DNA from: Candidatus Abyssobacteria bacterium SURF_5
GTDB taxonomy: Bacteria; Abyssobacteria; SURF-5
Direction: 5' to 3'
Assembly (NCBI GenBank): GCA_003598085.1
Contig: QZKU01000022.1
Coordinates: forward strand, 1 to 48,701
DNA length: 48,701 bases
Numbering within the stretch: position 1 is the first letter of the stretch; each line of letters starts with the position of its first letter. The translations under genes were made by a program, and so were the position numbers. Of this stretch, positions 4,508 through 39,073 are shown one piece after another. The notes beneath the pieces were generated by a model, which had not been told where the DNA came from, made no database searches, and saw nothing but the letters and a program-made list of their open reading frames with translations.

Positions 4508-4562
4508 GGCTGAAAGTATCGGAGCGAGCCTTCGCTCGCAGGCTGTTTTCGCCGCTTCAGCC
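4508..4562. terminator. bidirectional stem-loop between convergent genes
   Basis: This lies between the convergent glycogen synthase and MFS genes. An inner perfect stem GCGAGC/GCTCGC (4524-4529 and 4534-4539) with a CTTC loop sits within an outer stem GGCTGAA/TTCAGCC (4508-4514 and 4556-4562). The U-run is weak, so termination could be by structure alone. Confidence 0.5.
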
Positions 4563-5965
4563 TACCTCAAGCTTTTGCGGGCGATCTCCGTGAACGGGTG
4601 CAGCAGATAATTGAACCCGCTCGCAATGTTTATCCCTCGAACGCTCCTCAGGACCCGGATCAACTGTCCGACTTGCGCTTCTTCAGGCTCGGATATGTGC
4701 CTGAATAACTGAAAACCCAGCAGGCGCATCAAAGTGGAGGCGAGAAAGATGAAATGAAGCGGAACGATCTCGAAGGAAAGGAGGTTCAAGTGAGGCAAGG
4801 CAGCGTGCTTGAGTATCGATCCCGCCACGATAGGACCGGTCGCGGCGCCGAGCCCGCCGATTATGCTGTACGTGGAGAAGTAAAGCGAGCGGTTCTCCTT
4901 CGGAGAAATTCCAAGCAGCAAGTTGCTCATGCACAGGTTTATGCCGGCCCAAAAGAGCCCGCTTATGATGCTGATCATAACCGGCAAGGCGAGCGAGCCG
5001 GGCCGCACGAATATCCAGATGAAGGGGATGCAGATAGCGACTGAACTCGAGAAACGGATAACGGCCTTGTTCTTGACCGTGTCCGACATTCTCCCCCAGA
5101 AGCGCATTCCCAGCAGGTCTGCAAAACCCGATATGGTGCCCAATGCCGCCACGAATCCATAGCTGAACTGCAGGTCCTGCAGGAAGAACACCGTAAAGAA
5201 AGGCGCGGCGAAATGCACCGAAAACCCCCATACGAGCGCGAACAACAGGAATTTTCTGAAGTTGCGCTCGCGGAACGGCAGCGCCAGATTCGCCAGGAAA
5301 GGACGCGTGCGCATCGGCCGCACCATTACCGGCTCTGACACTTTGAGAAGGAACCGCATGCTGATGATGCCGAATATTATCGCTGAGATGAATACGACGC
5401 TGAACCCGAGAGATAGCCCGTCCGGCGAGGCATCCTTCAATACGTCAAGCAGCTTGCCATAGCCGAGCATCATTGCCATTCCCGCCGCCCCGCACAACAT
5501 GTTCCTGTTCCCGAAGAAGCGGCCTCTCATCGAACCGGGAACCATATCCGACATCAGCGACAGCCAGGAGACTCCGCTCACGGAATTGCAGCTATGGGAA
5601 AGAAAAATAAGACCGAGGATAAGACTGAACTTCAAGGAGGCCGGATGCACGGGCAGAAGCGCCGTGATCAGAATCGGCGCCCACATGAGGCGCGCCAGCG
5701 CCGCCCCCCAGCACCAGAAGACCTTCCGCTTGCCGGTTGTCTCGATCAGGTGCGACGTCGGCCACTGAAAGATCGTCACCAGGAACGGCATTGACGCCAG
5801 GATGCCGATCATGAATTCATCCATTCCCAGATGGAGCGCAAAACCCGTAAGAAAAACCCCGCCGGTGAGGGTTGCATACATGTTCGCGAATACCCCCTCA
5901 TAAACCGAATTCCTCAAATCGGTATCCGTTTCCGTGACGGGGGCAGCCTTTGCTACAACTTCCAT
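4562..5965 (-). CDS. major facilitator superfamily transporter
   Basis: A 467-residue polytopic inner-membrane protein with about 12 hydrophobic segments in two halves. The first loop after TM2 reads HLIETTGKRKVFWCW, and the second half carries WGRMSDTVKNKAVIRF, both matching the MFS loop motif between TM2/3 and TM8/9. ENRSLYFSTYSIIGGLGAATGP is typical of the TM10-11 region in this subgroup. GGAGAGGA lies five bases before the ATG. It follows the deacetylase gene by 112 bp with an intrinsic terminator in between, so it may be expressed partly by read-through. It is a plausible exporter of the product of the upstream aminomutase/ligase operon, which is inference from position. No substrate is predictable. 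Confidence 0.85.
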   Translation of the reverse strand: MEVVAKAAPVTETDTDLRNSVYEGVFANMYATLTGGVFLTGFALHLGMDEFMIGILASMPFLVTIFQWPTSHLIETTGKRKVFWCWGAALARLMWAPILITALLPVHPASLKFSLILGLIFLSHSCNSVSGVSWLSLMSDMVPGSMRGRFFGNRNMLCGAAGMAMMLGYGKLLDVLKDASPDGLSLGFSVVFISAIIFGIISMRFLLKVSEPVMVRPMRTRPFLANLALPFRERNFRKFLLFALVWGFSVHFAAPFFTVFFLQDLQFSYGFVAALGTISGFADLLGMRFWGRMSDTVKNKAVIRFSSSVAICIPFIWIFVRPGSLALPVMISIISGLFWAGINLCMSNLLLGISPKENRSLYFSTYSIIGGLGAATGPIVAGSILKHAALPHLNLLSFEIVPLHFIFLASTLMRLLGFQLFRHISEPEEAQVGQLIRVLRSVRGINIASGFNYLLHPFTEIARKSLR

Positions 5966-6077: not shown

Positions 6078-7811
6078 CTATACCGATGCTCCCGCCGTCA
6101 ACCCCGCAAAGAAATGCCGGGCGTTGACGCCGAGAGACCTGGTTCGATATCCCCCCTCCTGGACAATGAGAATAGGACACTCCAACTGCGCGATCATCCG
6201 GCCATTGAGCTCGAAATCGCGAGCGATTAAACTCCATGTCCCCGTCGGATCGTGCTTGGCCGTGTCAAGCCCGAATGCAATCACAACATAACGCGGGTTG
6301 AATTTCGCCACCCGCCTCAGTGCCCGCGTGAGAACTTCTCGATACTGTTCTCCTTCCACGTGCTCGGGAAGCGGGAAGTTCACGTTAAAACCTTCGCCGG
6401 CGCCGCCCCCCCGCTCATCCTCAAATCCGCTGAAATAGGGGAACGCGAACTGAGGATGGCCATGAATGGAAATGGTGAGAACATCCGGCCGCTCGTAAAA
6501 GATGTCCTGCGTCCCGTTGCCGTGATGGTAATCGATATCCAAAACGGCGACCTTCCCGTACGCGCTGAGGAAAGCAGCCGCGATGGCGGCCGAATTGAAG
6601 TAGCAGAATCCGCCGAAGGAACGCCGCTCCGCGTGATGGCCCGGCGGGCGCACCAGCGCATAGGCGAGGTTGTAGCCGCTCAGCAGCGCCTCAGCCGCCG
6701 TGAGCGCGCAGTCGACCGCCCGTTCTGCAGCGAGAAAAGCATTGCGGTTCAATGGCGTGAACGTGTCGATGCAATAATATCCGGCGCGTATCGCGAGCTC
6801 TTTGGGAGGGCGCGCCACGTTCCTGATCGGAAAAACGTATGGATAGATCGACCTGTTGCTTTCCATGCTCAAACAGATTCTGCGCAAATAGTCCACGAAT
6901 CTGTTGTCGTGGACCGACTTGATATATTTTTCGGAGAAGTGGCGCGGCTCGAGCCGTTCAAAGACGTCCAAGGAAAAAATCTCGCGGAGGATCGAACGAA
7001 TTCGCACCGGAGCTTCAACGTAACCCCGCTCGCGCACGTGATGGATGTCATGTTTCTCATTTATCACCAGCGCGACCTTCTTTCCGCGCAGCCGTATCTC
7101 TTTCGGAGGAGAGGGTCTTCGCTTCGAATATTTCGGCTCGCGAAGCATGACGGGATCGTCCTTGAACGACTCGACAACCAGGTCCACGTAATCGGGGGTG
7201 CACAGATAACGATACTTTCTTTCCAGGATTGCACGAACCGCGGCGCGAGCATAATCGCGACCGAGTGGAATCCCTCGGCCGAGATCGTCATATACGAGGT
7301 AGGGAGGGCACTGCAGGTCCGGTCGAACAGGCGTCTCATACGCCGTGTTCACTATCGGGCGAGCCCCGTAACGCTCATAAAAACGGAGACGAGCCGCGTT
7401 ATCCTTTAGAATCTCCGGTATCCGGCACAGCATCGGGTCGTCCGGCAGGCATTCAAAGAAAATGCCTGCCGCATCAAGCGCAAGAGCTTCCTCCCTTGCC
7501 CTTTCATAGAGAGCGCCTCCTATTCCGCCTCCCGCACGCAGGGGAGCCGCCGAAATGAAATCCAGAAACATGAAGTCCAGATCGGAGGCATGATACATCA
7601 GCGCAAAGCCCTTCACCTGTGCGCGCATGTCGTCGGCAACGAACAGGATCGGGCGGAAGAGGCGGGAAGGATCGCGCAGTTTTTCGGGAAGGCTCTCCAC
7701 TTGCTCTTCAGGCAATGCTCGAAATCGCGTCCGAAGGATGTCCTGGACCTGCGTGATCGCGTGCCTGTCGATGAGCACGCCGTCATCATGGATTCTTCGA
7801 ATGCGAAACAT
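6078..7811 (-). CDS. GNAT acetyltransferase fused to a histone deacetylase/acetylpolyamine amidohydrolase domain
   Basis: A 577-residue two-domain cytoplasmic enzyme. Residues 1-175 are a GNAT fold with the acetyl-CoA loop RAGGGIGGA at 92-100 and ending with FYERYGARP. Residues 240-577 are an arginase-fold Zn deacetylase of the HDAC/AcuC/APAH superfamily. All catalytic residues are visible: His392-His393 in RPPGHH, Zn ligands Asp427 and His429 in DIDYHHGNG, Asp516 in GLDTAKHDP, and Tyr555 in QEGGY. The family removes acetyl groups from lysine-like amines or polyamines. Joining an acetylase and a deacetylase in one chain suggests handling of a protecting acetyl group. The gene overlaps the preceding GNAT gene by 26 bp, implying translational coupling in the aminomutase/ligase operon. 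The substrate is unknown; an N-acetyl-beta-lysine derivative is my inference. Confidence 0.9.
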   Translation of the reverse strand: MFRIRRIHDDGVLIDRHAITQVQDILRTRFRALPEEQVESLPEKLRDPSRLFRPILFVADDMRAQVKGFALMYHASDLDFMFLDFISAAPLRAGGGIGGALYERAREEALALDAAGIFFECLPDDPMLCRIPEILKDNAARLRFYERYGARPIVNTAYETPVRPDLQCPPYLVYDDLGRGIPLGRDYARAAVRAILERKYRYLCTPDYVDLVVESFKDDPVMLREPKYSKRRPSPPKEIRLRGKKVALVINEKHDIHHVRERGYVEAPVRIRSILREIFSLDVFERLEPRHFSEKYIKSVHDNRFVDYLRRICLSMESNRSIYPYVFPIRNVARPPKELAIRAGYYCIDTFTPLNRNAFLAAERAVDCALTAAEALLSGYNLAYALVRPPGHHAERRSFGGFCYFNSAAIAAAFLSAYGKVAVLDIDYHHGNGTQDIFYERPDVLTISIHGHPQFAFPYFSGFEDERGGGAGEGFNVNFPLPEHVEGEQYREVLTRALRRVAKFNPRYVVIAFGLDTAKHDPTGTWSLIARDFELNGRMIAQLECPILIVQEGGYRTRSLGVNARHFFAGLTAGASV

Positions 7812-8352
7812 CGTCTTTCGTTCTTGGTAAGGCGGGCATCAAAACCGATTTCCTCGCCGGATAGGGATGTTTTGGCTCCAGGTTTTTCATGAAAATCAAC
7901 TTGTGGTCGCCTGCTTTGTAAAAATCTGTCAGAATCGAAACCAGTTCATACTGATTTTTCTTGTAAAACGTTCGGGCTTGCTCGAAAGCCGGCAACGAAG
8001 AAGTCTCAATATAGATTTGCCGGGCTCCCTGCGAGCGGGCGAGGTGCTCCATATGCTTCACGAGGGCGCCGCCGACACCTTGTCTCCCATAGTGAGTGCT
8101 GACCGCAATCCAGTAAAGGTCGTAGGCGGCGTCGGTGATCGGGATCAATCCAAAGCATATGTATCCCGCAAGGTCACCCTGTTCTCCGACCGCGCAAAAA
8201 GTCTGGTAATCCCCTCGCTCTGGAAAGCGAAGCGCATCGTCGAGCACCTCGATCGCAACCTTCATCTCGTGTTCGGGGAATACACGTCTCTCCCGCAAGA
8301 TCCGTACGATCTGATCCTTGTCCTCTCCTTTGAGCGGCCGAATGGTAATCAT
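7786..8352 (-). CDS. GNAT family N-acetyltransferase
   Basis: A 188-residue single-domain GNAT enzyme. The core signature is DLYWIAVSTHYGRQGVGGAL (about residues 77-96), where RQGVGG is the acetyl-CoA pyrophosphate-binding loop, followed by IYIETSSLPAFEQARTFYKKNQYE, the usual motif B. The family moves acetyl from acetyl-CoA to an amine. In the ablA/ablB system a GNAT acetylates the epsilon-amine of beta-lysine made by lysine 2,3-aminomutase. This gene shares an operon with an aminomutase, so the same reaction is a reasonable inference. It starts 9 bp after the upstream ATP-grasp gene and overlaps the next by 26 bp. The last 25 residues, rich in Lys and Pro, are an unstructured-looking tail over that overlap. 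Confidence 0.88.
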   Translation of the reverse strand: MITIRPLKGEDKDQIVRILRERRVFPEHEMKVAIEVLDDALRFPERGDYQTFCAVGEQGDLAGYICFGLIPITDAAYDLYWIAVSTHYGRQGVGGALVKHMEHLARSQGARQIYIETSSLPAFEQARTFYKKNQYELVSILTDFYKAGDHKLIFMKNLEPKHPYPARKSVLMPALPRTKDDVSHSKNP

Positions 8353-8361
8353 CAGACGGTC

Positions 8362-9348
8362 TCATCCCATTCTTTTCTGCACGAATTGAAGAAGCTCATC
8401 GATCATCTCCACATAGTGCAGGTCATTCTGGTTCCCCGCCGCCGCGAATCCCGCATCCGGACTGATGCACGGATTCGCGTTCACCTCCAACACGAACACT
8501 CTGCCTCGATCATCGACGCGTACATCAACCCGGCCGTAGTCCCTGAGTCCGAATAGACTGAAACATTCCAGAGCCGTCTCCTCCAGCTTGCGGGCGAGCG
8601 GGCGCGGGAGGCGCGGGAAAGTTCGCCGCGAATGCTGATATTCAAAAGACGAGACGTCCCATTTCGCGCGATAGCCGACGATCCGAAATAAATCCGGGGG
8701 AAAGCCATCAAAGTCTATTTCGGCTATTGGCAACGTCTCCGGCACCGGAAACCCGAAAAGGGAAATATTGAATTCCCGTCCCGCGATGTACTCTTCAATC
8801 AGGAGGCAGCCATACCGCTGGAACAAGTCACGCAGGCCCGCGCGCAGCTTGTTTGCTTCCCGAAACACCGATTCCTGATCGATTCCTACGCTGGCGTCCT
8901 CGAATCTGGGTTTAACGATCACCGGGAAATTCAGCTTCTCAAGCGCCGGGACTTCATTCCCCTCGTAGGCTTCAAACCTCGGGGTCTTGAATCCGCAGGA
9001 TGAAAGCAGGCGCTTCGACACCAGCTTGTCGGTACTCAGCATGAGCGCCGCGGTGGGCGAGCCTGAAAAAGGGATATCGAGCAACTCCAACACGGCCGCA
9101 GGATGACCGATTAACAGAGGATCTTCGTCCACACTCTCGCAGAGGTTCATCACCAGATGGGGCTTTTCTTCGGCGAGCTTTTGGACGACCGCTCCTACGT
9201 CTTTCGTGAAAGCGATTCGCGTGGATTCATATTCCAGTTCGGCGAGGGCCCGTTCCACGGCCTCCACCTGCGTCAGGACGTCAATGGAGGCTTCCGAAAA
9301 TTCGCGGCCCGTGAGGGCGGGCTCATTGTATAGGATAGCGACCTTCAT
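8362..9348 (-). CDS. ATP-grasp ligase, D-Ala-D-Ala ligase-like (second of pair)
   Basis: A 328-residue ATP-grasp enzyme of the D-alanine-D-alanine ligase fold, which activates a carboxylate as acyl-phosphate and joins it to an amine. Visible ATP-grasp features are FPVIVKPRFEDAS (Lys146), LLIEEYIAGREF (Glu185-Glu186), DYGRVDVRVDD (near Asp275) and LEVNANPCISPDAGF (Glu288, Asn290) for Mg-ATP. The N-terminal domain differs from true Ddl, with MNLCESVDEDPLL instead of the usual substrate loop, so a peptidoglycan role is unlikely. It overlaps the upstream ATP-grasp gene by 26 bp, and no mur genes are near. The place beside lysine 2,3-aminomutase suggests that beta-lysine or its acetyl form is a substrate, which is inference. 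Confidence 0.9.
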   Translation of the reverse strand: MKVAILYNEPALTGREFSEASIDVLTQVEAVERALAELEYESTRIAFTKDVGAVVQKLAEEKPHLVMNLCESVDEDPLLIGHPAAVLELLDIPFSGSPTAALMLSTDKLVSKRLLSSCGFKTPRFEAYEGNEVPALEKLNFPVIVKPRFEDASVGIDQESVFREANKLRAGLRDLFQRYGCLLIEEYIAGREFNISLFGFPVPETLPIAEIDFDGFPPDLFRIVGYRAKWDVSSFEYQHSRRTFPRLPRPLARKLEETALECFSLFGLRDYGRVDVRVDDRGRVFVLEVNANPCISPDAGFAAAGNQNDLHYVEMIDELLQFVQKRMG

Positions 9349-10336
9349 GTGCTACTTGCTCCACGCTGTATCTCTTTATCGCCGATGTCAGTATCTGCGC
9401 AATCAAATCGCGATAGGTCATCCCAACCCGATAGGCGATAAAACACAGGTCGGAATGGTCCGGGTTGAGGCCGGCCAACGGATTAACCTCCATGAAATTG
9501 GGGATTCCCTTGCTGTCCATGCGAATATCGATACGGCCGCCGTCGCGACAGCCAAGGCCACGCCAGGCCGCCAGTGCAATCTCCGCCGACTCCTCCGCAA
9601 TCCTTCCCGTGACCAGAGGATATTCAACGAACCGCTCCCATTCTTGCTTGTTCGAATAGGAATAAGCGTCCGCCTCGGACCCTTCGCGAAGGACCACCTC
9701 GACGACGCCAACTGCCGTCGCCGCCTTACCGGTGCCGGTTATGCCTACGGTGAGCTCTCTGCCGGGAAGATACGTCTCCACAAGGACCGGCTGCCTGAAT
9801 TGCCTCGCGATCGACAGACAGACCCGGCGCAACTGATCGCGGTCCACAATCTTTGAGGCGGCGCTAATGCCCTTTCCCGTGCCTTCCGCCACTGGTTTGG
9901 CAAAAAGAGGGAACGGAAGGGTTATCCCCTCGATGTCTTCTTCGCTTTCGACCACGGCAAAATCCGCCGTCGGAATCCCGAGGTCGCGAACGACATGCTT
10001 CGTCATTCCCTTATGCAAAGTCAACGAGAGCACCAGCGGGTCCGAAAAGACATAAGGGATATCGTATGCGTCGAGAAGGGCGGGAACCTGTGCTTCCCGC
10101 CCGAACCCGCGCATCCCTTCGGCAATGTTGAAAACCATGTCCCAGCGCCCGCCAGCGGCGAGTCGCCGGGTGAGGCTCTCGATATTCCCGATTCGCTCGG
10201 TCTCGTGGCCCAGCTCGGCCAGCGCCCGCTCCAGAGCCTCGATCGTATCGAGACGGTCGAACTCGGCCGTCTCTTCCTCGCCGTACCCCTTCTCCAGGTA
10301 CTCCTGCCGTAAATCATAGGTCAGCCCCATTCTCAT
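9323..10336 (-). CDS. ATP-grasp ligase, D-Ala-D-Ala ligase-like (first of pair)
   Basis: A 337-residue ATP-grasp enzyme, related to but clearly different from its neighbour. Visible are FPLFAKPVAEGTGKGI (Lys147 and a glycine-rich lid), LVETYLPGREL (Glu187), DGGRIDIRMD (Asp270) and NFMEVNPLAGLNPDHSD (Glu283, Asn285). VFNIAEGMRGFGREAQVP near residues 68-85 resembles the acceptor-side loop of Ddl enzymes. Its start codon overlaps the stop of the aminomutase gene as ATGA, so translation is probably coupled. An internal ATG at codon 3 is an alternative start. Two non-identical ligases in a row imply two successive amide or peptide bonds, or two alternative acceptors. The substrates are not readable from sequence. 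Confidence 0.9.
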   Translation of the reverse strand: MRMGLTYDLRQEYLEKGYGEEETAEFDRLDTIEALERALAELGHETERIGNIESLTRRLAAGGRWDMVFNIAEGMRGFGREAQVPALLDAYDIPYVFSDPLVLSLTLHKGMTKHVVRDLGIPTADFAVVESEEDIEGITLPFPLFAKPVAEGTGKGISAASKIVDRDQLRRVCLSIARQFRQPVLVETYLPGRELTVGITGTGKAATAVGVVEVVLREGSEADAYSYSNKQEWERFVEYPLVTGRIAEESAEIALAAWRGLGCRDGGRIDIRMDSKGIPNFMEVNPLAGLNPDHSDLCFIAYRVGMTYRDLIAQILTSAIKRYSVEQVAHEGRYPIQ

Positions 10337-11661
10337 CTGCAGGGCGCCCCTTGTTCCGCGTCGACATCCGTCCCGACTCCGGGGCTATCCGGATATCGAT
10401 AGACGTTGCCTTCGTAATTTCTCAAGAGCAGATAGCCGTCTTCCCGGCCAACCACGTTCTCCGGCAGCAGCGGCACCTTTCCGCCTCCGCCCGGCGCATC
10501 GATAACATACGACGGCACGGCGTAGCCGGTCGTATGACCGCGCAGACCCTGAATGATCTCGAGCCCCTTTGATACCGGCGTCCGGAAATGCGAGGAGCCC
10601 AGGATCGGGTCGCACTGGTAAAGGTAATATGGCCGCACGCGAGCCCGAAGCAGCCCCTGTAACAGGCTCTTCATCGTCTCGACGGTGTCGTTGATGCCGG
10701 CCAGCAGAACGGTCTGGCTGCCCAGCGGGATACCTGCATCGGCCAGGCGCTCGCACGCGCGGACGGTTTCCGGTGTCAACTCGTCCGGATGAGTGAAATG
10801 GATGCTCATCCACAGGGGATGATACCGCTTGAGCATCGAAGTCAGAGCCGGCGTAATGCGCTGCGGCAGCACGACGGGCGCCTTTGTGCCAATGCGGATC
10901 AGCTCCACGTGCGGGATGCGCCGCAGCCGCGACAAAAGCATCTCCAGCTTGTCGTTCGTGAGGGTGAGCGGATCTCCCCCCGAAAGCAGAACGTCGCGAA
11001 TGGCCGGCGTTGCTTCTATATACGACAGCGCCTTCTCCCAATTTTCGAACTTGCAGGGCGAAGCCTTCTTCCCAACCATCCGAGAGCGCGTGCAGTAGCG
11101 GCAGTACGTCGAGCAAAATTCAGTCACAATGAACAAGGCCCGGTCCGGATATCGATGCACCAGCCCATGCACGGGACTGTCCTCATCTTCACCCAGAGGG
11201 TCCGCCGACTCGCCGGGGGCCGCGAGATGCTCCGCCGCCACGGGAATAACGCTTCGGCGTATCGGTTGAGAGGGATCGTTTTCGTCCAGAAGCGTGGCGT
11301 AATGAGGGGTGATGGCTACCGGCAAAGAACCAGAGTGGAGGGAAATGCCTTCTCGCTCATCGTCGGTAAGTTTGACAAGATGCTCCAGCCGCTCGAGGGT
11401 CTTGATTCGATTGCGCAGTTGCCAGCGCCAATTCGACCAATCTGCCTCGGTGGCTTGCGGGAAAAAACGTTTTCGAAAAACCAGGACCCTGAGGTTTTGC
11501 TCAGCGACTGGTATACGGCGGGCGTCTCCACCGGCTCTTTTCCTCTTGAATGTTTCAGATCCTGTCGCACAGACACCCCACCTTTTGTCCTCCGACTGCC
11601 CGAGACCGGGCATGGTACCCGGAGGTTCGACTTCTTCAATACTAATGAAGTCCTTTTTCAT
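10333..11661 (-). CDS. kamA: lysine 2,3-aminomutase (radical SAM, PLP)
   Basis: A 442-residue radical SAM enzyme that interconverts L-lysine and beta-lysine using a 4Fe-4S cluster, SAM and PLP. The cluster Cys are at 183, 187 and 190 (CSTYCRYC), followed by TRSRMVG. LLSGGDPL (225-232) contacts SAM. The PLP lysine is Lys395 in DAPGGGGKVPL. The two Asp residues that bind the substrate epsilon-amine in characterised lysine enzymes are retained: Asp351 (YQCD) and Asp388 (IDAP). This argues for lysine rather than glutamate as substrate. The C-terminal segment after the PLP site is present, unlike in the short EpmB enzymes. About 50 extra N-terminal residues precede the usual start of homology. It leads an overlapping run of ligase, acetylase and deacetylase genes. 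Confidence 0.93.
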   Translation of the reverse strand: MKKDFISIEEVEPPGTMPGLGQSEDKRWGVCATGSETFKRKRAGGDARRIPVAEQNLRVLVFRKRFFPQATEADWSNWRWQLRNRIKTLERLEHLVKLTDDEREGISLHSGSLPVAITPHYATLLDENDPSQPIRRSVIPVAAEHLAAPGESADPLGEDEDSPVHGLVHRYPDRALFIVTEFCSTYCRYCTRSRMVGKKASPCKFENWEKALSYIEATPAIRDVLLSGGDPLTLTNDKLEMLLSRLRRIPHVELIRIGTKAPVVLPQRITPALTSMLKRYHPLWMSIHFTHPDELTPETVRACERLADAGIPLGSQTVLLAGINDTVETMKSLLQGLLRARVRPYYLYQCDPILGSSHFRTPVSKGLEIIQGLRGHTTGYAVPSYVIDAPGGGGKVPLLPENVVGREDGYLLLRNYEGNVYRYPDSPGVGTDVDAEQGAPCR

Positions 11662-11705: not shown

Positions 11706-11936
11706 CTAAATGCTTCCACTCCGATGCTTCTTTTGCAAGCGGTACTGTTTGACCCAGATGACTTTTTTGCCTTCCTCCTCTCTCACCTCACCGCTGACAT
11801 GTACATTCTGATGAATCAACTGCAGCAGCTTCCCGCCCTTTTCCCGACCGTCGATCCGATACTCATTCTCATCGCCAGTGGCAACGGCGGCGGCAAGAAC
11901 CTTCCCTTTGGAATCCCACTCCACGGGAATAACCAC
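11706..11936 (-). CDS. small conserved-looking protein at the head of the aminomutase operon
   Basis: A 76-residue soluble protein (VIPVEWDSKGKVLAAAVATGDENEY, then GKLLQLIHQNVHVSGEV, then KKVIWVKQYRL) with a beta-rich, OB-like pattern. I cannot assign a function. The GTG at 11936 lacks a ribosome site. The frame stays open upstream to a TGA at 11979-11981 and reads PITEARLAKISG, which looks coding. GAGAAGG lies just upstream of an ATT at 11967-11969, so either ATT is the start or a frameshift has separated the protein from the ATG at 11998-12000. It ends 44 bp before the aminomutase start and lies just downstream of the sigma-54 promoter, so it is probably the first gene of the operon. It might be a small regulator or carrier-like partner, which is speculation. 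Confidence 0.6.
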   Translation of the reverse strand: MVIPVEWDSKGKVLAAAVATGDENEYRIDGREKGGKLLQLIHQNVHVSGEVREEEGKKVIWVKQYRLQKKHRSGSI

Positions 11937-12027
11937 GCCCGATATTTTTGCGAGTCTGGCTTCCGTAATTGGACCTTCTCACTTTCACTAGCTCAAACAT
12001 CGATATACAAATTATCGGTATATTAGG

Positions 12028-12043
12028 AGCAATAACCATGCCA
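12028..12043 (-). promoter_or_regulatory. sigma-54 (-24/-12) promoter of the aminomutase/ligase operon
   Basis: On the minus strand the sequence is TGGCATGGTTATTGCT. It matches the sigma-54 consensus TGGCACG-N4-TTGCW at every fixed position but one (T for C), with the correct GG-GC spacing. Transcription should begin near 12017, about 50-80 bases before the small protein. A sigma-54 activator gene ends only about 215 bp upstream, which strongly supports the assignment. Confidence 0.8.
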
Positions 12044-12106
12044 TAACGATAACGTCTTATTCTTCAAAGGGTTAAGCAGAGATCAGCAACGTACGCTTTC
12101 GGAATC

Positions 12107-12239
12107 GGAAGTTCCTCTTTTTTCGCCCGCGCTCATGCAGAAAAGCCTTGTCGGGCCCAGATAGACAGAAATGTCAAGAAAAAACATCATACCGGAACAA
12201 GATGTTCCTATTTGTGATAATATCAGAACTGGGAATTCC
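12107..12239 (-). promoter_or_regulatory. cluster of GGAA/TTCC palindromes upstream of the sigma-54 promoter
   Basis: Three short palindromes with the same half-site lie about 65-195 bp upstream of the -24 element: GGAAGTTCC (12107-12115), GGAACAAGATGTTCC (12194-12208, perfect six-base arms) and GGAATTCC (12232-12239). This is the usual position of upstream activator sites for sigma-54 enhancer-binding proteins. The adjacent activator gene is the natural candidate to bind them. Confidence 0.45.
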
Positions 12240-12258
12240 TGAATCGGAGGGAGTGCCT

Positions 12259-14092: not shown

Positions 14093-15001
14093 ATGAAATC
14101 GAGGCTTACCAGGATCATATGTTCTTATTGCCTTTTCTTCGGGGTCATCATGTTTTCGGCCATTAAAGCCAGCAACCTGCTTACAGCCTCAGCATTTCCC
14201 TACATGCCGGACAGGCGTCTCCTCGAATTCGACCGGACGTTGGAGGGGTACGCCAGTTCGCCTTCGCCCGGCCGGCGCTACGTCATTCTGGGGAGCTCCT
14301 ACGCTGAAGCCCTCGACACCTCCTATATCAATCTCGGGCTGATCTCAACGGTTCCGCGGGAACATATGCACATTATCAAAAAATGCCCGCCTGCGGATAC
14401 GGTCCTTTATGTCTTCACCCTTCTGGACCTCTTTTATGCAAACTCTCCAACGCGCGAATATGTCATACGACCGCCGCTGCGGCGCCTGTATCTATGCAAA
14501 ATGAGCCTTCTCTACCGGGCGCGCCTCTTTGATCGAGTCGAGGAAAAGCCAGGCAGCTATCATGAGGAGTACCGGCTTCTGCAGTATGCAGCGGGAAGGG
14601 AGAGCCTGAAAGATCTGTGGGCGGATAGAACGATCCAGTTGATCGGAGGACTCGCTGCGTGCGAGCGAGTGGACCTTGCTCCGCTGAGAAGGCTGCAACA
14701 GCTTCATCCGAATATCATCTTCGTTCTTCATCCTATTTTGCCATTGAAATCGCTTCCCGAGAACAGCGCCTTCGCGCGACAGGTGAACCATCTCGTCACC
14801 CGGCAGCACGAGCTTCTGGAAAACATGCAGCAAAGCGGGTTGCCCTTTATCGATTTATCCAATGAGGTGAAATCCGAACAATTTATTGATCTCCTCCATG
14901 TCAGGCCGGAGGCCGAATTGGGCCGCAAACTCGAGGATGCCCTGATGGACAGAGAATTCCTCAAAGAGCCTCTGATTCGGGCGCCCGTTCCCGCGGGATA
15001 A
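14093..15001 (+). CDS. membrane-anchored SGNH/DltD-like protein
   Basis: A 302-residue protein with one N-terminal hydrophobic segment (IICSYCLFFGVIMFSAI, about residues 8-24), so probably anchored with its body in the periplasm. The body has two features of SGNH-fold esterases or acyltransferases: YVILGSSYAEAL near residue 63 in the place of the GDS serine block, and EQFIDLLHVRPEAE near residue 262 in the place of the Asp-x-x-His block. DltD and AlgJ/AlgX proteins of this fold add acyl groups to cell-surface polymers. No MBOAT partner is nearby. The closest AAGGAGG lies 16 bases before the ATG, so the start is fairly uncertain. It precedes a sugar amidotransferase by 89 bp on the same strand. 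The fold assignment rests on these two motifs only. Confidence 0.6.
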   Translation: MKSRLTRIICSYCLFFGVIMFSAIKASNLLTASAFPYMPDRRLLEFDRTLEGYASSPSPGRRYVILGSSYAEALDTSYINLGLISTVPREHMHIIKKCPPADTVLYVFTLLDLFYANSPTREYVIRPPLRRLYLCKMSLLYRARLFDRVEEKPGSYHEEYRLLQYAAGRESLKDLWADRTIQLIGGLAACERVDLAPLRRLQQLHPNIIFVLHPILPLKSLPENSAFARQVNHLVTRQHELLENMQQSGLPFIDLSNEVKSEQFIDLLHVRPEAELGRKLEDALMDREFLKEPLIRAPVPAG

Positions 15002-15090
15002 GGAAATGGATATCCTTGACAAATCAAAGGCTGCTGTGCTTCAATTAACGCATTCAACTACAGTCGAACTTTCTAACGAAGAGGGAGCCA

Positions 15091-16203
15091 ATGGCAAGAT
15101 GCCGTAGATGTCTGCTGACCGATGCGATTCCGGACGTGAATCTGGATGAGGACGGCGTGTGCAATGAATGCCGCGAGTTTCGGCCTGAAGTCTATGAGCC
15201 CGACCCGGTAACCAGGGAACAGCAGCAAAGACAGCTCGATTCGATTCTCACAAGGTATAAGGGCAGAGGCGCTTACGACGTGCTTGTCGGTTTGAGCGGC
15301 GGAAAAGACAGTGCTTATCTGATTTACCGGCTAAAGGAAGAATACGGGCTCAGGGTGCTGGCTTATTCTTTTGATAACGGCTTCCTGCCGCCGGCGGCGC
15401 TGAAGAACATCAGGCAGACTTTGGACACTCTCAAGGTTGATCACTACATGGCGCGCCCCAGCTTCGATCTGTTGCGGAAGGTCTACATTTACATGCTGAC
15501 ACGAACGTCCGGCAGCGTCATTCTGAAGCTCTGCCCGATCTGCGCTTCCTTCTATGGAAATATCGCAAAAAGTGTGGCATCGAAGTTCAACATCCCCGTG
15601 GTGGCTTTCGGATACTCGCGAGAACAGGATGACCCCAATTTCCGAATCCCCCGGAGCCGGTACTATGCATTTGCAACTCAATTCATGCCGCGGGACCTGT
15701 TCGATAATGTTCTCAATGCAGATGAACGCGCGTATCTGAAAGAAATCTATTGCGACCAGGTGAGAAAGATCATGCCGAACTGGCTGACTAGGGCGCTGGC
15801 GTGGGAATTGCCCACCTCCCAGTTCCGGTTTGCGATCCGGAAGTGGCCCATGGTCGTCGCTCCCTATAAGGTCTGGGGATACAATCCCGATGAGAACAAG
15901 AAAAAAGCCATAGAGTTGGGGCTGCTTGCAGATGGAAAAGCCCACCCGCTGGACACTAATTGCCATCTCGTGCCGGTCATGTATTATTCGGATTACAAGC
16001 GCCAGGGATGGACCGTGTTCGTCTATGAGTTGGCTCGCCTGGTGAGACAGGGTAAAGTCGATCGCTCCATCTGGGCCAAAGAATTCGACCAGGGCGACCT
16101 CGAGGTGGAAGAAGGCACCTTCCGGAAAGAAACAGTGGACTATGTCTTGGACCGGCTCGGAATAACCAGAGAACAACTGACGGCGAAAACAGCGGGGGGT
16201 TGA
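15091..16203 (+). CDS. N-acetyl sugar amidotransferase (WbpG/PseA-like ATP pyrophosphatase)
   Basis: A 370-residue PP-loop enzyme. The N-terminal zinc knuckle has Cys4, Cys7, Cys24 and Cys27 (CRRC...CNEC). The PP-loop GLSGGKDS is at 67-74, followed by the inserted KLCPICASFYG typical of the WbpG family. These enzymes use ammonia and ATP to turn a sugar acetamido or carbonyl group into an acetamidino or amino group in surface polysaccharides; the ammonia usually comes from an HisH-like glutaminase. No HisH/HisF-like partner is seen here, so the ammonia source must be elsewhere. The gene converges on the polysaccharide locus that begins at 16262, and a structured intergenic separates them. It probably tailors a sugar of that polymer. 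Confidence 0.88.
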   Translation: MARCRRCLLTDAIPDVNLDEDGVCNECREFRPEVYEPDPVTREQQQRQLDSILTRYKGRGAYDVLVGLSGGKDSAYLIYRLKEEYGLRVLAYSFDNGFLPPAALKNIRQTLDTLKVDHYMARPSFDLLRKVYIYMLTRTSGSVILKLCPICASFYGNIAKSVASKFNIPVVAFGYSREQDDPNFRIPRSRYYAFATQFMPRDLFDNVLNADERAYLKEIYCDQVRKIMPNWLTRALAWELPTSQFRFAIRKWPMVVAPYKVWGYNPDENKKKAIELGLLADGKAHPLDTNCHLVPVMYYSDYKRQGWTVFVYELARLVRQGKVDRSIWAKEFDQGDLEVEEGTFRKETVDYVLDRLGITREQLTAKTAGG

Positions 16204-16208
16204 AGGAG

Positions 16209-16235
16209 GAGCCTGTTTCGACCTGAAAACGGCTC
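16209..16235. terminator. stem-loop between convergent genes
   Basis: GAGCC (16209-16213) pairs with GGCTC (16231-16235), and GTTT pairs with AAAC inside, with one bulged base. It lies in the 58-bp gap between two convergent genes. The U-run is poor, so confidence is moderate. Confidence 0.4.
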
Positions 16236-16261
16236 TCCGCTTCTCAGCCGCTTCAATCGGT

Positions 16262-17920
16262 TCAATCTACGTATCCAAGCCCGCGCAACGAGTCTATGAT
16301 GCGCTCCTCATCCTCGGCGCCGTACGCGTCTTCCCCGTGCCCCCCGAAGGCCTCGGCAGTTGATTCGTCATAGGCGATGGGGTGCGCCTCAACGTATCCA
16401 TCCTGAAAAATCTCCACCAGCACCCGGCCGTCCATTTCCTTCGGAACCGGAAACCCGAGAAGGTAAAGGAGCGTTGGCGCAATGTCCTGAATGTTTGCGG
16501 CTGGAATCTCCCGCCGCCTGGCAAAGTTCGGACCGGCGGCGAGAAAAACTCCTTCAATGCGGTGCATTCCGCTGAGCGGCGGAGAATGCCTCGTATCGAA
16601 CCATTTTCTCTTATCGAGCCTCTCGTTGGGAACATAGGTGATCCCCGCGATGCTCAAATACAGGTCCGGCCCAAAGGTGGAATACGGACCCGAATACAGG
16701 GTTCTTTGATCTGCAATTTCGATCGGGCCCACTCTATCACTGAGTTGGCTCAGTTTTCGGGATATCTCTGAAAGCAGTTCCTCGTAATCCCGCCCGTGCT
16801 CCACAATACCGAATGGTTCCCTGCCTTTCACATTTATCCTCAGCCCGAACAGAGTGGTATAGGCCCTGGTCCTGGACCAAATGATGTCCCCTGTGTCGTT
16901 CCTTGCTTTCACCAGCGGAAACGTGAGAGGGATCTGCAGCACCTTCCTGGGGAGCAATCCATTCAAGAACCGCAGCTTCAATCGCTCGAGAATTCTAACC
17001 AATTGAGTTTTCTTCAGGACCAGCCGCGGAACCCGCCGCACGGTCATATAGTGGTGGTCCATAAGCCACCTATTGAGATAAAAGTCCCCATGGTATGGTC
17101 CGAAACCGTGGTCGGACACAATAATGACCGGCGTTTCCGCTTCAACTGTTTCAAGCAGCCGGCCAACCATGGTGTCAACCAGGCGATAGGCTTCCTGAAT
17201 CAAATTTCCCAGCGCTTTTGCGCTCTTTTCTGAATAATGAGGGTGGGCAGGATCGCCGAGGTGCCAGAAATAATGCTGCAACCTGTCCAACAGGGTCAGA
17301 ACGACAACGAAGACATCGGGTTGTTTCTCTTTTTGAAGGGCCACAGACACAGCAACCCGCTTTTCCTCGATCGAGACCATGTCCTCGAACAGGGCTCTGA
17401 ATTGCTCCACCACTGTCTTTGGATCGTTCTCCCAAGAAATGATGTCGCTGAAATCGCGATCCACCCGGTAACCACTGAACCTGCTCGCGATCTCCTCGCC
17501 CAATTCAGGCGGATGACAGTATTTCTCATCATTCGCGGCCACGGGAATGCCGGGAATGACGAATCCATTGATTTTTGGCGGCGGATAAGTCATCGGAATG
17601 TTGACCATACCCACGGTTAGCCCGGCTTTCGAGAGGAGCGATGGGAACGTTTCGCTCCGAATATCGCGGAATGAGCACGGCACCTGCTTCATCGAATCGG
17701 GTGCCGGTTTCGTGAAATGAAAAACCCCATGCTTTCCCGGGTTTTTCCCCGTCAGAAAAGAGGACCAGGCGGCCGGACTGTTTGGCGGAATCACGGAATC
17801 GAGAATCGCGGAGGTTCCTCGTTTGGCCAGTGCGGCCAGATTCGGCATGCGGCCCGCTTCGATCAGTGGCGACATCACGTCCCACGTGGCGCCGTCAAGG
17901 CCAATAATAAGCGCTTTCAT
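16262..17920 (-). CDS. type I phosphodiesterase-like protein, alkaline phosphatase superfamily
   Basis: A 552-residue alkaline-phosphatase-fold protein of the type I phosphodiesterase/nucleotide pyrophosphatase group. LIIGLDGATWD at the N-terminus supplies the metal Asp9. IPPNSPAAWSSFLTG (44-58) with GKNPGKHGVF holds the nucleophile region. VIIVSDHGFGPYHGDFYLNRW (about 263-283) and SPPLSGMHRIEGVFLAAGPN supply further metal ligands. There is no signal peptide or membrane segment, so it is probably cytoplasmic. Relatives sit in polysaccharide loci, where a role in transferring or removing phospho-groups is suspected but not established. It is a paralog of the protein at 37171-38880 and ends in the same GLGY(V/I)D tail. 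It is the last minus-strand gene of the 31-kb locus. Confidence 0.88.
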   Translation of the reverse strand: MKALIIGLDGATWDVMSPLIEAGRMPNLAALAKRGTSAILDSVIPPNSPAAWSSFLTGKNPGKHGVFHFTKPAPDSMKQVPCSFRDIRSETFPSLLSKAGLTVGMVNIPMTYPPPKINGFVIPGIPVAANDEKYCHPPELGEEIASRFSGYRVDRDFSDIISWENDPKTVVEQFRALFEDMVSIEEKRVAVSVALQKEKQPDVFVVVLTLLDRLQHYFWHLGDPAHPHYSEKSAKALGNLIQEAYRLVDTMVGRLLETVEAETPVIIVSDHGFGPYHGDFYLNRWLMDHHYMTVRRVPRLVLKKTQLVRILERLKLRFLNGLLPRKVLQIPLTFPLVKARNDTGDIIWSRTRAYTTLFGLRINVKGREPFGIVEHGRDYEELLSEISRKLSQLSDRVGPIEIADQRTLYSGPYSTFGPDLYLSIAGITYVPNERLDKRKWFDTRHSPPLSGMHRIEGVFLAAGPNFARRREIPAANIQDIAPTLLYLLGFPVPKEMDGRVLVEIFQDGYVEAHPIAYDESTAEAFGGHGEDAYGAEDEERIIDSLRGLGYVD

Positions 17921-37170: not shown

Positions 37171-38880
37171 CTAATCGATATATCCCAGGCCCTTTAAACG
37201 TCGCCGTATATCGGCTTCTTCCTCAGCCGGCGTGCCGTCGCCCGGCTCGCTTTCGGCCGCAAACACGTGGTCTCCCTCCTCGACCCTCACCGGCTTGAAA
37301 ATTATCGGATGGTCGGAAAGGAAATCGTTTTGGAAAGCCTCGGCAATAACCTTGCCATCCATGTCTTCCGGCACGGGAAGGCCCAGCAAATGCATTATTG
37401 TGGGAGCCATGTCCTCTATATGCGCATCCTGAATTCCGGCCCCCTTCTTCGCGTTGCGATCCCTCATGAAAAAGATGCCGTTCATACGGTGAATAGCGGG
37501 GCTGAAATCGGCCGGTTTCTCAAAAATCGGTTTGCCGAACAACTCGCCTCGCGGAAGTATCGCCGTCGCGCGGGTGACAAATTGGATATCGGGCGCAAGC
37601 TCCATGCACGGGCCGGCGTAAATCTCCTCGCGGCGGTAGGCTTTTTCAACCACGCGCTCGCCGTCGTGGTCCCTCAGGTTCTGGAGCTTCCGGATTATCT
37701 CGTCGCGGAGCCTCTCGTATTCCTCGCCGGATGCTACGATTCCCTCCGGCTCTCTGCCCTTCACGTTGAGGTAGATCACCTCTTCGCCGCCCGTCCAGCT
37801 CGAATACGCCCTGGTCCTCGTCCAATCGATGACCGGCGGCGCTTCCGTCGCGTCTCTTGCCGGTTTGAGAAACTTCAGGTTGCGCGCCCTGATCCGGCTG
37901 AGCATTCCAACAATTCTCTCGCCAAGAATCTTCCTCATGAGCGGTCCAACAAGGAAATTGCGAAGCGCTCTCAGTGGACTGAGCCTGAACGAGCCGCCCT
38001 TCTTCAACACCAGCAAGCCCTCGTCCCGAAGCCATCTGTTCACATAAAATTTTTCGTGGATCGGGCCGAACCCGTGGTCGGACATGATAATGACCGACGT
38101 GTCTTCGTCAAGCGTGGAAATGATGTCTCCAATGAGATCGTCGACGAGTTCGTAGGAAGTTTCGATCAGGCCGCGGAACTTTGCGCATTTCTCGGGAAAC
38201 TGTTTCTGGTATTCAGGAATCGTGTATTTCCACGCGACGTGCGCCACCTTATCCGTGATCGAAAACATGACCATCGCGAAGTCCCATGCATTCTTGCTCA
38301 TCAGAAGCTTGGCCGCCTCGTGCACCTTGCGGGTGCCGTGAACCATGCTCTGATACGCCAAAACTTCGTCGCCGGTATTCAGAAAGACATCCACCGCATC
38401 CGTGTCTATCGGATAATCCCCGAGCGCTGCGATAAGCTCCATGTGCAGCTCCGGTGGATGCGTGAACACGCTCATCGGGCTGGGCGTGAGCAGGCCGCCA
38501 ACCAGAAACCCGTTGACTTTTTCCGGCGGATACGTAACCGGCACATTCACCACGATCACTCTCTTACCCTGCTCGCTCAAAAGGTTCCAGAGGGTTTTCG
38601 CCTTGATCGATTTCGCGCTGATGACAGGGCGGGCATAGCTGTTCGGCTTCTTCTCCATGAAGAAATAGACACCGTGCTTGCCGGGCTTTTTCCCCGTCAT
38701 GAAGGAGCTCCAGGCGACCGAACTGTTCGGAGGAATCGTCGACACCAGTGTGCCGTGCGCCGATTCTTTCAGAAGGCGCGCGAAATTCTTCAGGCGCCCC
38801 TTCTTGATCATCGGCGATATAATGTCAAAAGTGGCCCCGTCTACGCCGATTACAACAACTTTTTTCTTTCTCTGATCCAC
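37171..38880 (-). CDS. type I phosphodiesterase-like protein, alkaline phosphatase superfamily, second copy
   Basis: A 569-residue paralog of the protein at 16262-17920. VVVIGVDGATFDIISPMI supplies the metal Asp. TIPPNSSVAWSSFMTG with GKKPGKHGVY carries the nucleophile region, and VIIMSDHGFGPIHEKFYVNRW further metal ligands; AIHRMNGIFFMRDRN and a GLGYID end follow. It has no membrane segment. I set the start at a GTG at 38880, preceded by GGAG at six bases. The in-frame ATG at 38910 lies inside the terminal inverted repeat of the adjacent repeat element and so may not be original. It heads the glycosyltransferase run after the repeat. A role in phospho-group chemistry of the polymer is plausible but unproven. 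Confidence 0.87.
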   Translation of the reverse strand: MDQRKKKVVVIGVDGATFDIISPMIKKGRLKNFARLLKESAHGTLVSTIPPNSSVAWSSFMTGKKPGKHGVYFFMEKKPNSYARPVISAKSIKAKTLWNLLSEQGKRVIVVNVPVTYPPEKVNGFLVGGLLTPSPMSVFTHPPELHMELIAALGDYPIDTDAVDVFLNTGDEVLAYQSMVHGTRKVHEAAKLLMSKNAWDFAMVMFSITDKVAHVAWKYTIPEYQKQFPEKCAKFRGLIETSYELVDDLIGDIISTLDEDTSVIIMSDHGFGPIHEKFYVNRWLRDEGLLVLKKGGSFRLSPLRALRNFLVGPLMRKILGERIVGMLSRIRARNLKFLKPARDATEAPPVIDWTRTRAYSSWTGGEEVIYLNVKGREPEGIVASGEEYERLRDEIIRKLQNLRDHDGERVVEKAYRREEIYAGPCMELAPDIQFVTRATAILPRGELFGKPIFEKPADFSPAIHRMNGIFFMRDRNAKKGAGIQDAHIEDMAPTIMHLLGLPVPEDMDGKVIAEAFQNDFLSDHPIIFKPVRVEEGDHVFAAESEPGDGTPAEEEADIRRRLKGLGYID

Positions 38881-38900
38881 TTGTTTCTCCAGGCGCCTGC

Positions 38901-39073
38901 CTAATGCCATTCACTTAAGGCGAGGCCGACTGCTTTTTGTACGAATTGCATTCTGCCGCTCCCTTGAATTTCCCCCTTTGGAAAAGGGGGACTAAGGGGG
39001 ATTCTAGACCGCGATGTTGTTTGTGTCGCATTTCATACATCCTCTTTCGAGGTGCTTAAATGAATGGCATTAG
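38901..39073. repeat. 173-bp element with 19-bp terminal inverted repeats and an internal REP-like palindrome
   Basis: CTAATGCCATTCACTTAAG at 38901-38919 and CTTAAATGAATGGCATTAG at 39055-39073 are inverted copies with one mismatch in 19. Inside lies a perfect palindrome TCCCCCTTT-GGA-AAAGGGGGA (38971-38991), followed by a second AAGGGGGATT. The internal palindrome is of a type scattered through many bacterial genomes. No coding capacity is visible. The element fills almost the whole gap between the radical SAM and phosphodiesterase genes, and its left end supplies an ATG in frame with the latter. Confidence 0.65.

Follow-up and report, generated by a model that had tools for sequence, protein, structure and literature searches.

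Between a gene for a sigma-54 enhancer-binding protein and an operon for a lysine 2,3-aminomutase-type enzyme (KamA), a -24/-12 motif lies on the minus strand of a 48.7-kb stretch of DNA, the whole of which is called the window here. Does this motif act as a promoter, and does the neighbouring regulator govern the aminomutase operon through it? The initial annotation had paired regulator, promoter and pathway in this way, adding that the product would be formed only in response to a specific cue such as stress or nutrient limitation. From sequence comparison we conclude, with a probability of about 0.9, that the motif is a genuine sigma-54 promoter and that the activator encoded beside it controls it. 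The features on which the argument draws are collected in Table 1.

Table 1. Genes and predicted regulatory elements of the aminomutase locus (positions are those of the window).
Feature	Position	Strand	Basis
MFS transporter, probably the final gene of the unit	4562..5965	-	family match; homologue in L083
Histone-deacetylase-superfamily amidohydrolase with N-terminal extension	6078..7811	-	family match; also in several homologous operons
GNAT-type acetyltransferase	7786..8352	-	family match
ATP-grasp ligase 2 (D-Ala-D-Ala ligase-like)	8362..9348	-	family matches
ATP-grasp ligase 1 (D-Ala-D-Ala ligase-like)	9323..10336	-	family matches
kamA, lysine 2,3-aminomutase-type radical SAM enzyme	10333..11661	-	2a5h alignment 4e-145; substrate Asp/Arg residues kept
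Conserved small ORF, OB-fold family, 90 codons stop to stop	11706..11978	-	homologues; structural model of one homologue and fold search with it
Sigma-54 -24/-12 promoter (predicted), TGGCATGGTTATTGCT	12028..12043	-	motif match; position conserved relative to activator sites
Activator site 1 (predicted, proximal), TCGGAATCGGAAGTTCCTC	12099..12117	.	centre 65 bases upstream of -24 T; 19.1 bits, rank 1
Activator site 2 (predicted), CCGGAACAAGATGTTCCTA	12192..12210	.	centre 158 bases upstream of -24 T; 17.6 bits, rank 3
Activator site 3 (predicted, distal), TCAGAACTGGGAATTCCTG	12223..12241	.	centre 189 bases upstream of -24 T; 17.8 bits, rank 2
Sigma-54 enhancer-binding protein, 476 aa	12259..13689	-	receiver degenerate; AAA+ domain with GAFTGA; helix-turn-helix-like C-terminus

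The motif itself was described correctly. It departs from the consensus TGGCACGN4TTGCW at one position, a C to T change that is a frequent variant, and retains both the -24 GG and the -12 GC at the right spacing; it lies downstream of the activator gene and upstream of kamA, with a small ORF intervening. Judged from the -12 position, transcription is predicted to start near 12017, and the genome encodes sigma-54 (one rpoN, E 1e-65). We rejected the match alone as proof of a promoter, its count being close to background in window and genome: with up to two mismatches to the consensus, the window holds six matches against 7.1 expected from shuffles, and pattern searches of the 5.1-Mb genome return five matches to TGGCAYGN4TTGCW against one for a reversed control. 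This near-background frequency, together with the absence of such a motif from most kamA operons elsewhere, is what a chance sequence would lead one to expect, the operon then being read from another promoter; the only sigma-70-like site found in a scan of the region, however, is on the opposite strand. A weaker -24/-12-like match, TGGCAAGGTTATTGCC at 37342-37357 on the minus strand, falls inside an ORF of the same strand (37171-38910) and is probably fortuitous.

Three upstream palindromes, a combined pattern unique in the genome and conservation at homologous loci raise TGGCATGGTTATTGCT above chance. An inverted repeat, TCGGAAC-N5-GTTCCGA, recurs upstream of activator-linked promoters, including that of the window. 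When the whole 48.7 kb was scored with a matrix trained without the window, on activator-positive loci of which some are close relatives, the three predicted sites ranked above every other position, the next best of which reaches 11.1 bits, and they still stand out when whole lineages are left out of the training. A site followed after 48-64 bases by the promoter is matched once in the 5.1-Mb genome, at this locus, as is a pair of sites 30-31 bases apart, the pattern formed by sites 2 and 3. Across loci, the palindrome usually occurs three times, with centres some 195, 165 and 63 bases upstream of the -24 T; for most loci the distance from the middle to the proximal copy falls at about 91-93 or at about 102-104 bases, values one helical turn apart.

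One scan recovered 80 loci carrying the first ATP-grasp gene, nearly all of them with kamA. With a sigma-54 matrix that is approximate, being derived from general knowledge of the consensus, motifs of at least 11 bits were found in the 920 bases upstream of kamA in 19 of 68 loci (2.75 expected from shuffles). Their distribution is uneven: such a motif is present between the activator gene and the next gene in all nine loci with an adjacent close orthologue, the window counted, and in several genomes a second promoter of this kind lies about 120-130 bases before the matched kamA start. Close orthologues of the activator were identified in 14 of the 40 operon-carrying genomes. Both the operon and the activator are present in a cultured relative, Desulfoferrobacter suflitae DRH4. 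In every scorable activator-positive genome (13/13) and in no activator-negative one (0/25), the 1.6 kb preceding kamA contain at least two palindromic sites, a difference with Fisher p ~2e-10, the true weight of which is smaller because some genomes are related and the matrix was trained on the positive loci. Combined-pattern matches in activator-negative genomes are few and poor. The near-palindrome TGGCAAGCATCTTGCA in L085/L099, which occurs without activator sites, was set aside. As neither the close orthologue nor the sites were found for 25 of the 38 scored operons, control by this activator belongs to a subset of kamA operons. A search upstream of homologous operons had been set in advance as the test that could refute the initial annotation; the motif proved to be conserved where the activator is present, and the proposed link from regulator through promoter to pathway thereby gains strong comparative support from sites, conservation and co-occurrence.

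An independent set, obtained by searching the class to which one of the positive genomes belongs for orthologues of the activator, provided 19 further activator loci; the full arrangement is present in ten of them and in none of 190 shuffles. Among the new orthologues, the six closest (63-67% identity) are all positive, most with the same geometry (centres near -62, -165 and -195), and at more distant orthologues (54-56% identity) the adjacent arrangement is mostly absent. Some loci deviate in detail. L055 has a near-perfect promoter, but its sites lie at -267 and -308 rather than -63. Four Syntrophaceae-type loci (L040 2824, L058 4995, L052 6066 and L038 6119) keep TGGCAYGG and the activator sites and have a -12 element without GC, in which TTTCA, TTCCA, TTCTCA or TTCCT replaces TTGCW. 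Three top-ranked sites at conserved distances, uniqueness in the genome and the 13/13 versus 0/25 distribution would all be unexpected of a chance match, which we regard as extremely improbable. Neither of the other two genomes from this phylum has kamA or the activator orthologue; horizontal gain or loss of the module is therefore likely.

The activator has a well-marked AAA+ domain (PF00158, E 3.4e-68), with GAFTGA kept in the alignment, and its orthologues are 51-70% identical. Its receiver keeps the phospho-site Asp, and the acidic pair and Lys are replaced in 15 of 15 aligned orthologues; these losses, and the lack of a kinase gene among the neighbouring window genes scanned, make a canonical phosphorelay doubtful. 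Two-component signalling of the canonical NtrC type was accordingly rejected as the default, the acidic pair and Lys being gone. The far side of the activator gene (14093-17920) encodes an unassigned protein of 302 aa, an amidotransferase that resembles WbuX but scores below cut-off, and a member of the type I phosphodiesterase family. The genome holds at least 33 activator-like matches, any of which might serve a genuine promoter at this place, and promoter-like motifs do occur without the orthologue in L041 and L070. The palindromes, however, co-occur perfectly with this orthologue group and adjoin its gene, and the next best paralogue in the genome is only 39% identical, so that activation by a different protein seems very improbable.

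The aminomutase would not be the first gene of the transcript. The small ORF, missing from the gene list of the initial annotation, lies between the motif and kamA; it is thus the predicted first gene after the promoter and kamA the second. Many related loci carry homologues about 30-55% identical (tblastn), placed ahead of kamA or next to the activator gene. No Pfam family matched it, but a modelled homologue (pLDDT 88) shows an OB arrangement of five strands and a helix, and a fold search with that homologue gave OB domains as the best hits, for example those of LysRS and single-stranded DNA-binding proteins, at a TM of ~0.55 that denotes likeness of fold only. At the expected start of the window copy (11940-12000, minus strand) there is no ATG, GTG or TTG, which may reflect an unusual start codon, a disrupted frame or a mistake in the assembly; an ATG some 20 codons further upstream belongs to a different frame. 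At L039, L048, L064, L043 and L079, only the small ORF stands behind the activator-linked promoter, and a separate promoter precedes kamA. By analogy, the promoter of the window could be real and yet serve mainly the small ORF, with kamA and the genes beyond it read from a promoter of their own or by weak read-through. We consider this unlikely here: the gap between the small ORF and kamA is only some 45 bases and contains no terminator-like site on the operon strand, no second motif was found, and where the two genes are split kamA keeps the same activator sites.

The enzymes encoded downstream point to the chemistry that a single transcript would deliver. KamA aligns over 363 residues to lysine 2,3-aminomutase 2a5h and keeps the Asp of YQCD, the Asp of DAPGGGGK and the Arg of CTR, which we take to be the lysine contacts of that structure; against the AblA equivalog model TIGR03820 it scores 484.7, the cut-off being 525.4. 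The GNAT protein matched general acetyltransferase families only and none of the AblB-type models; an identity as an AblB-containing osmolyte (ablAB) operon was therefore set aside as unsupported by the family models. In the histone-deacetylase-superfamily protein, about 260 residues of N-terminal extension have no Pfam match. Gene order makes the MFS transporter a probable member of the transcription unit. The most likely product, as we infer it from the gene content, is a beta-lysine-derived, ligase-built and acetylated compound.

In the mechanism that we favour, the activator would bind the three palindromes, which lie about 91, 184 and 215 bases before the predicted transcription start, and DNA looping would bring it into contact with sigma-54 RNA polymerase on the -24/-12 element, where its AAA+ GAFTGA module would open the promoter. 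The transcript would then comprise the small OB-fold ORF, kamA, the two ATP-grasp ligases, the acetyltransferase, the deacetylase-like amidohydrolase and probably the transporter, and the encoded enzymes would make the beta-lysine-derived compound. Relatives would use this activator to control chaperones, OB-fold proteins and envelope proteins as well, presumably in response to stress.

The range of genes preceded by this arrangement in related genomes bears on the cue. Besides the kamA operon, they include the small OB-fold gene, exported OB-like proteins, genes for a DUF2914 protein, a DUF418 membrane protein and a Rho_N-domain protein, a PALP/DUF1611/creatininase operon, and a 56-aa ORF followed by groES-groEL. 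In L189 (6249-8440, minus strand), groES-groEL lies directly 3' of the activator orthologue behind a sigma-54 promoter and three activator sites; in L064 (8191, minus strand) an Hsp20 gene, divergent from the activator gene, has a promoter with a matching site arrangement; and in L210 (1148, minus strand) and L211 (3224, plus strand) a gene for a small Lpp-like lipoprotein beyond the activator has a similar promoter with a TGGTCC variant of the -24 element. Chaperones under the same arrangement make a stress-type regulon likely, and we consider it likely that the activator governs such a regulon, the beta-lysine-type biosynthesis operon included. The combined pattern finds no targets in the genome of the window besides this locus; by that test, therefore, stress genes are not co-regulated there. 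Of the cue that had been suggested, stress is thus plausible, given groES-groEL and Hsp20 in relatives; nutrient limitation finds no such backing, nor does the word "only", other promoters being possible.

The small OB-fold protein, usually encoded beside the activator, may feed back on it. We would offer even odds on the broader proposal of a previously undescribed sigma-54 stress regulon in Desulfobacterota-like bacteria and some others, in which an orphan activator with a degenerate receiver acts through TCGGAAC-N5-GTTCCGA sites on chaperones (groES-groEL, Hsp20), a new small OB-fold family, envelope proteins and a beta-lysine-peptide operon; searches of the literature on this gene cluster, on sigma-54 with chaperones and on PrsR sites returned no description of the module. 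A one-line motif match has in this way become a testable regulatory module with an activator, a DNA site, a promoter geometry and a list of targets. The link between a beta-lysine-type operon and chaperone genes points to a protective compound and offers a concrete route to the inducing condition, while a sigma-54 stress regulon with a non-canonical receiver, if true, would pose a clear signalling question.

Several known systems resemble parts of this locus. PrsR, the PEP-CTERM sigma-54 response regulator (TIGR02915), is the top named family for the activator, yet the score of 364.6 bits is below the curated cut-off of 502.6. The ablA-ablB operon, which makes the salt-induced osmolyte N-epsilon-acetyl-beta-lysine (cited in PMC3543383), likewise combines a lysine 2,3-aminomutase with an acetyltransferase, whereas the window has a GNAT protein that is not AblB-type and adds two ATP-grasp ligases and the histone-deacetylase-like enzyme. 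KamR together with sigma-54 drives kamA at the kam locus of Bacillus thuringiensis (PMC4428206, citing Zhang et al. 2014). Here too a sigma-54 promoter (TTGGCATAACTATTGCT in kam) precedes the lysine 2,3-aminomutase gene and the activator gene is adjacent and in the same direction, a likeness of promoter type, first enzyme and gene order that would suit a lysine-induced operon for lysine use in the window as well. KamR, however, has a PAS domain and serves a lysine metabolic pathway, whereas the window activator has a receiver-like domain, other binding sites and another operon; the passages of PMC4428206 on the kam locus mention no ATP-grasp ligases, of which the window operon has two. Ligases, acetyltransferase and amidohydrolase point to the building rather than the breakdown of beta-lysine, and chaperones are under the same control in relatives, so that a role in lysine use appears improbable. 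The reading that we prefer, a neighbouring activator acting on a biosynthetic operon through conserved sites, has a further parallel in the sigma-54 regulons of Desulfovibrio vulgaris (PMC4641369, PMC3333781). The main texts of those two papers mention neither an aminomutase nor Hsp20 nor a GGAA-type consensus, but the regulons that they describe share with the window an activator beside a sigma-54 promoter and conserved palindromic sites, and stress responses are among their targets.
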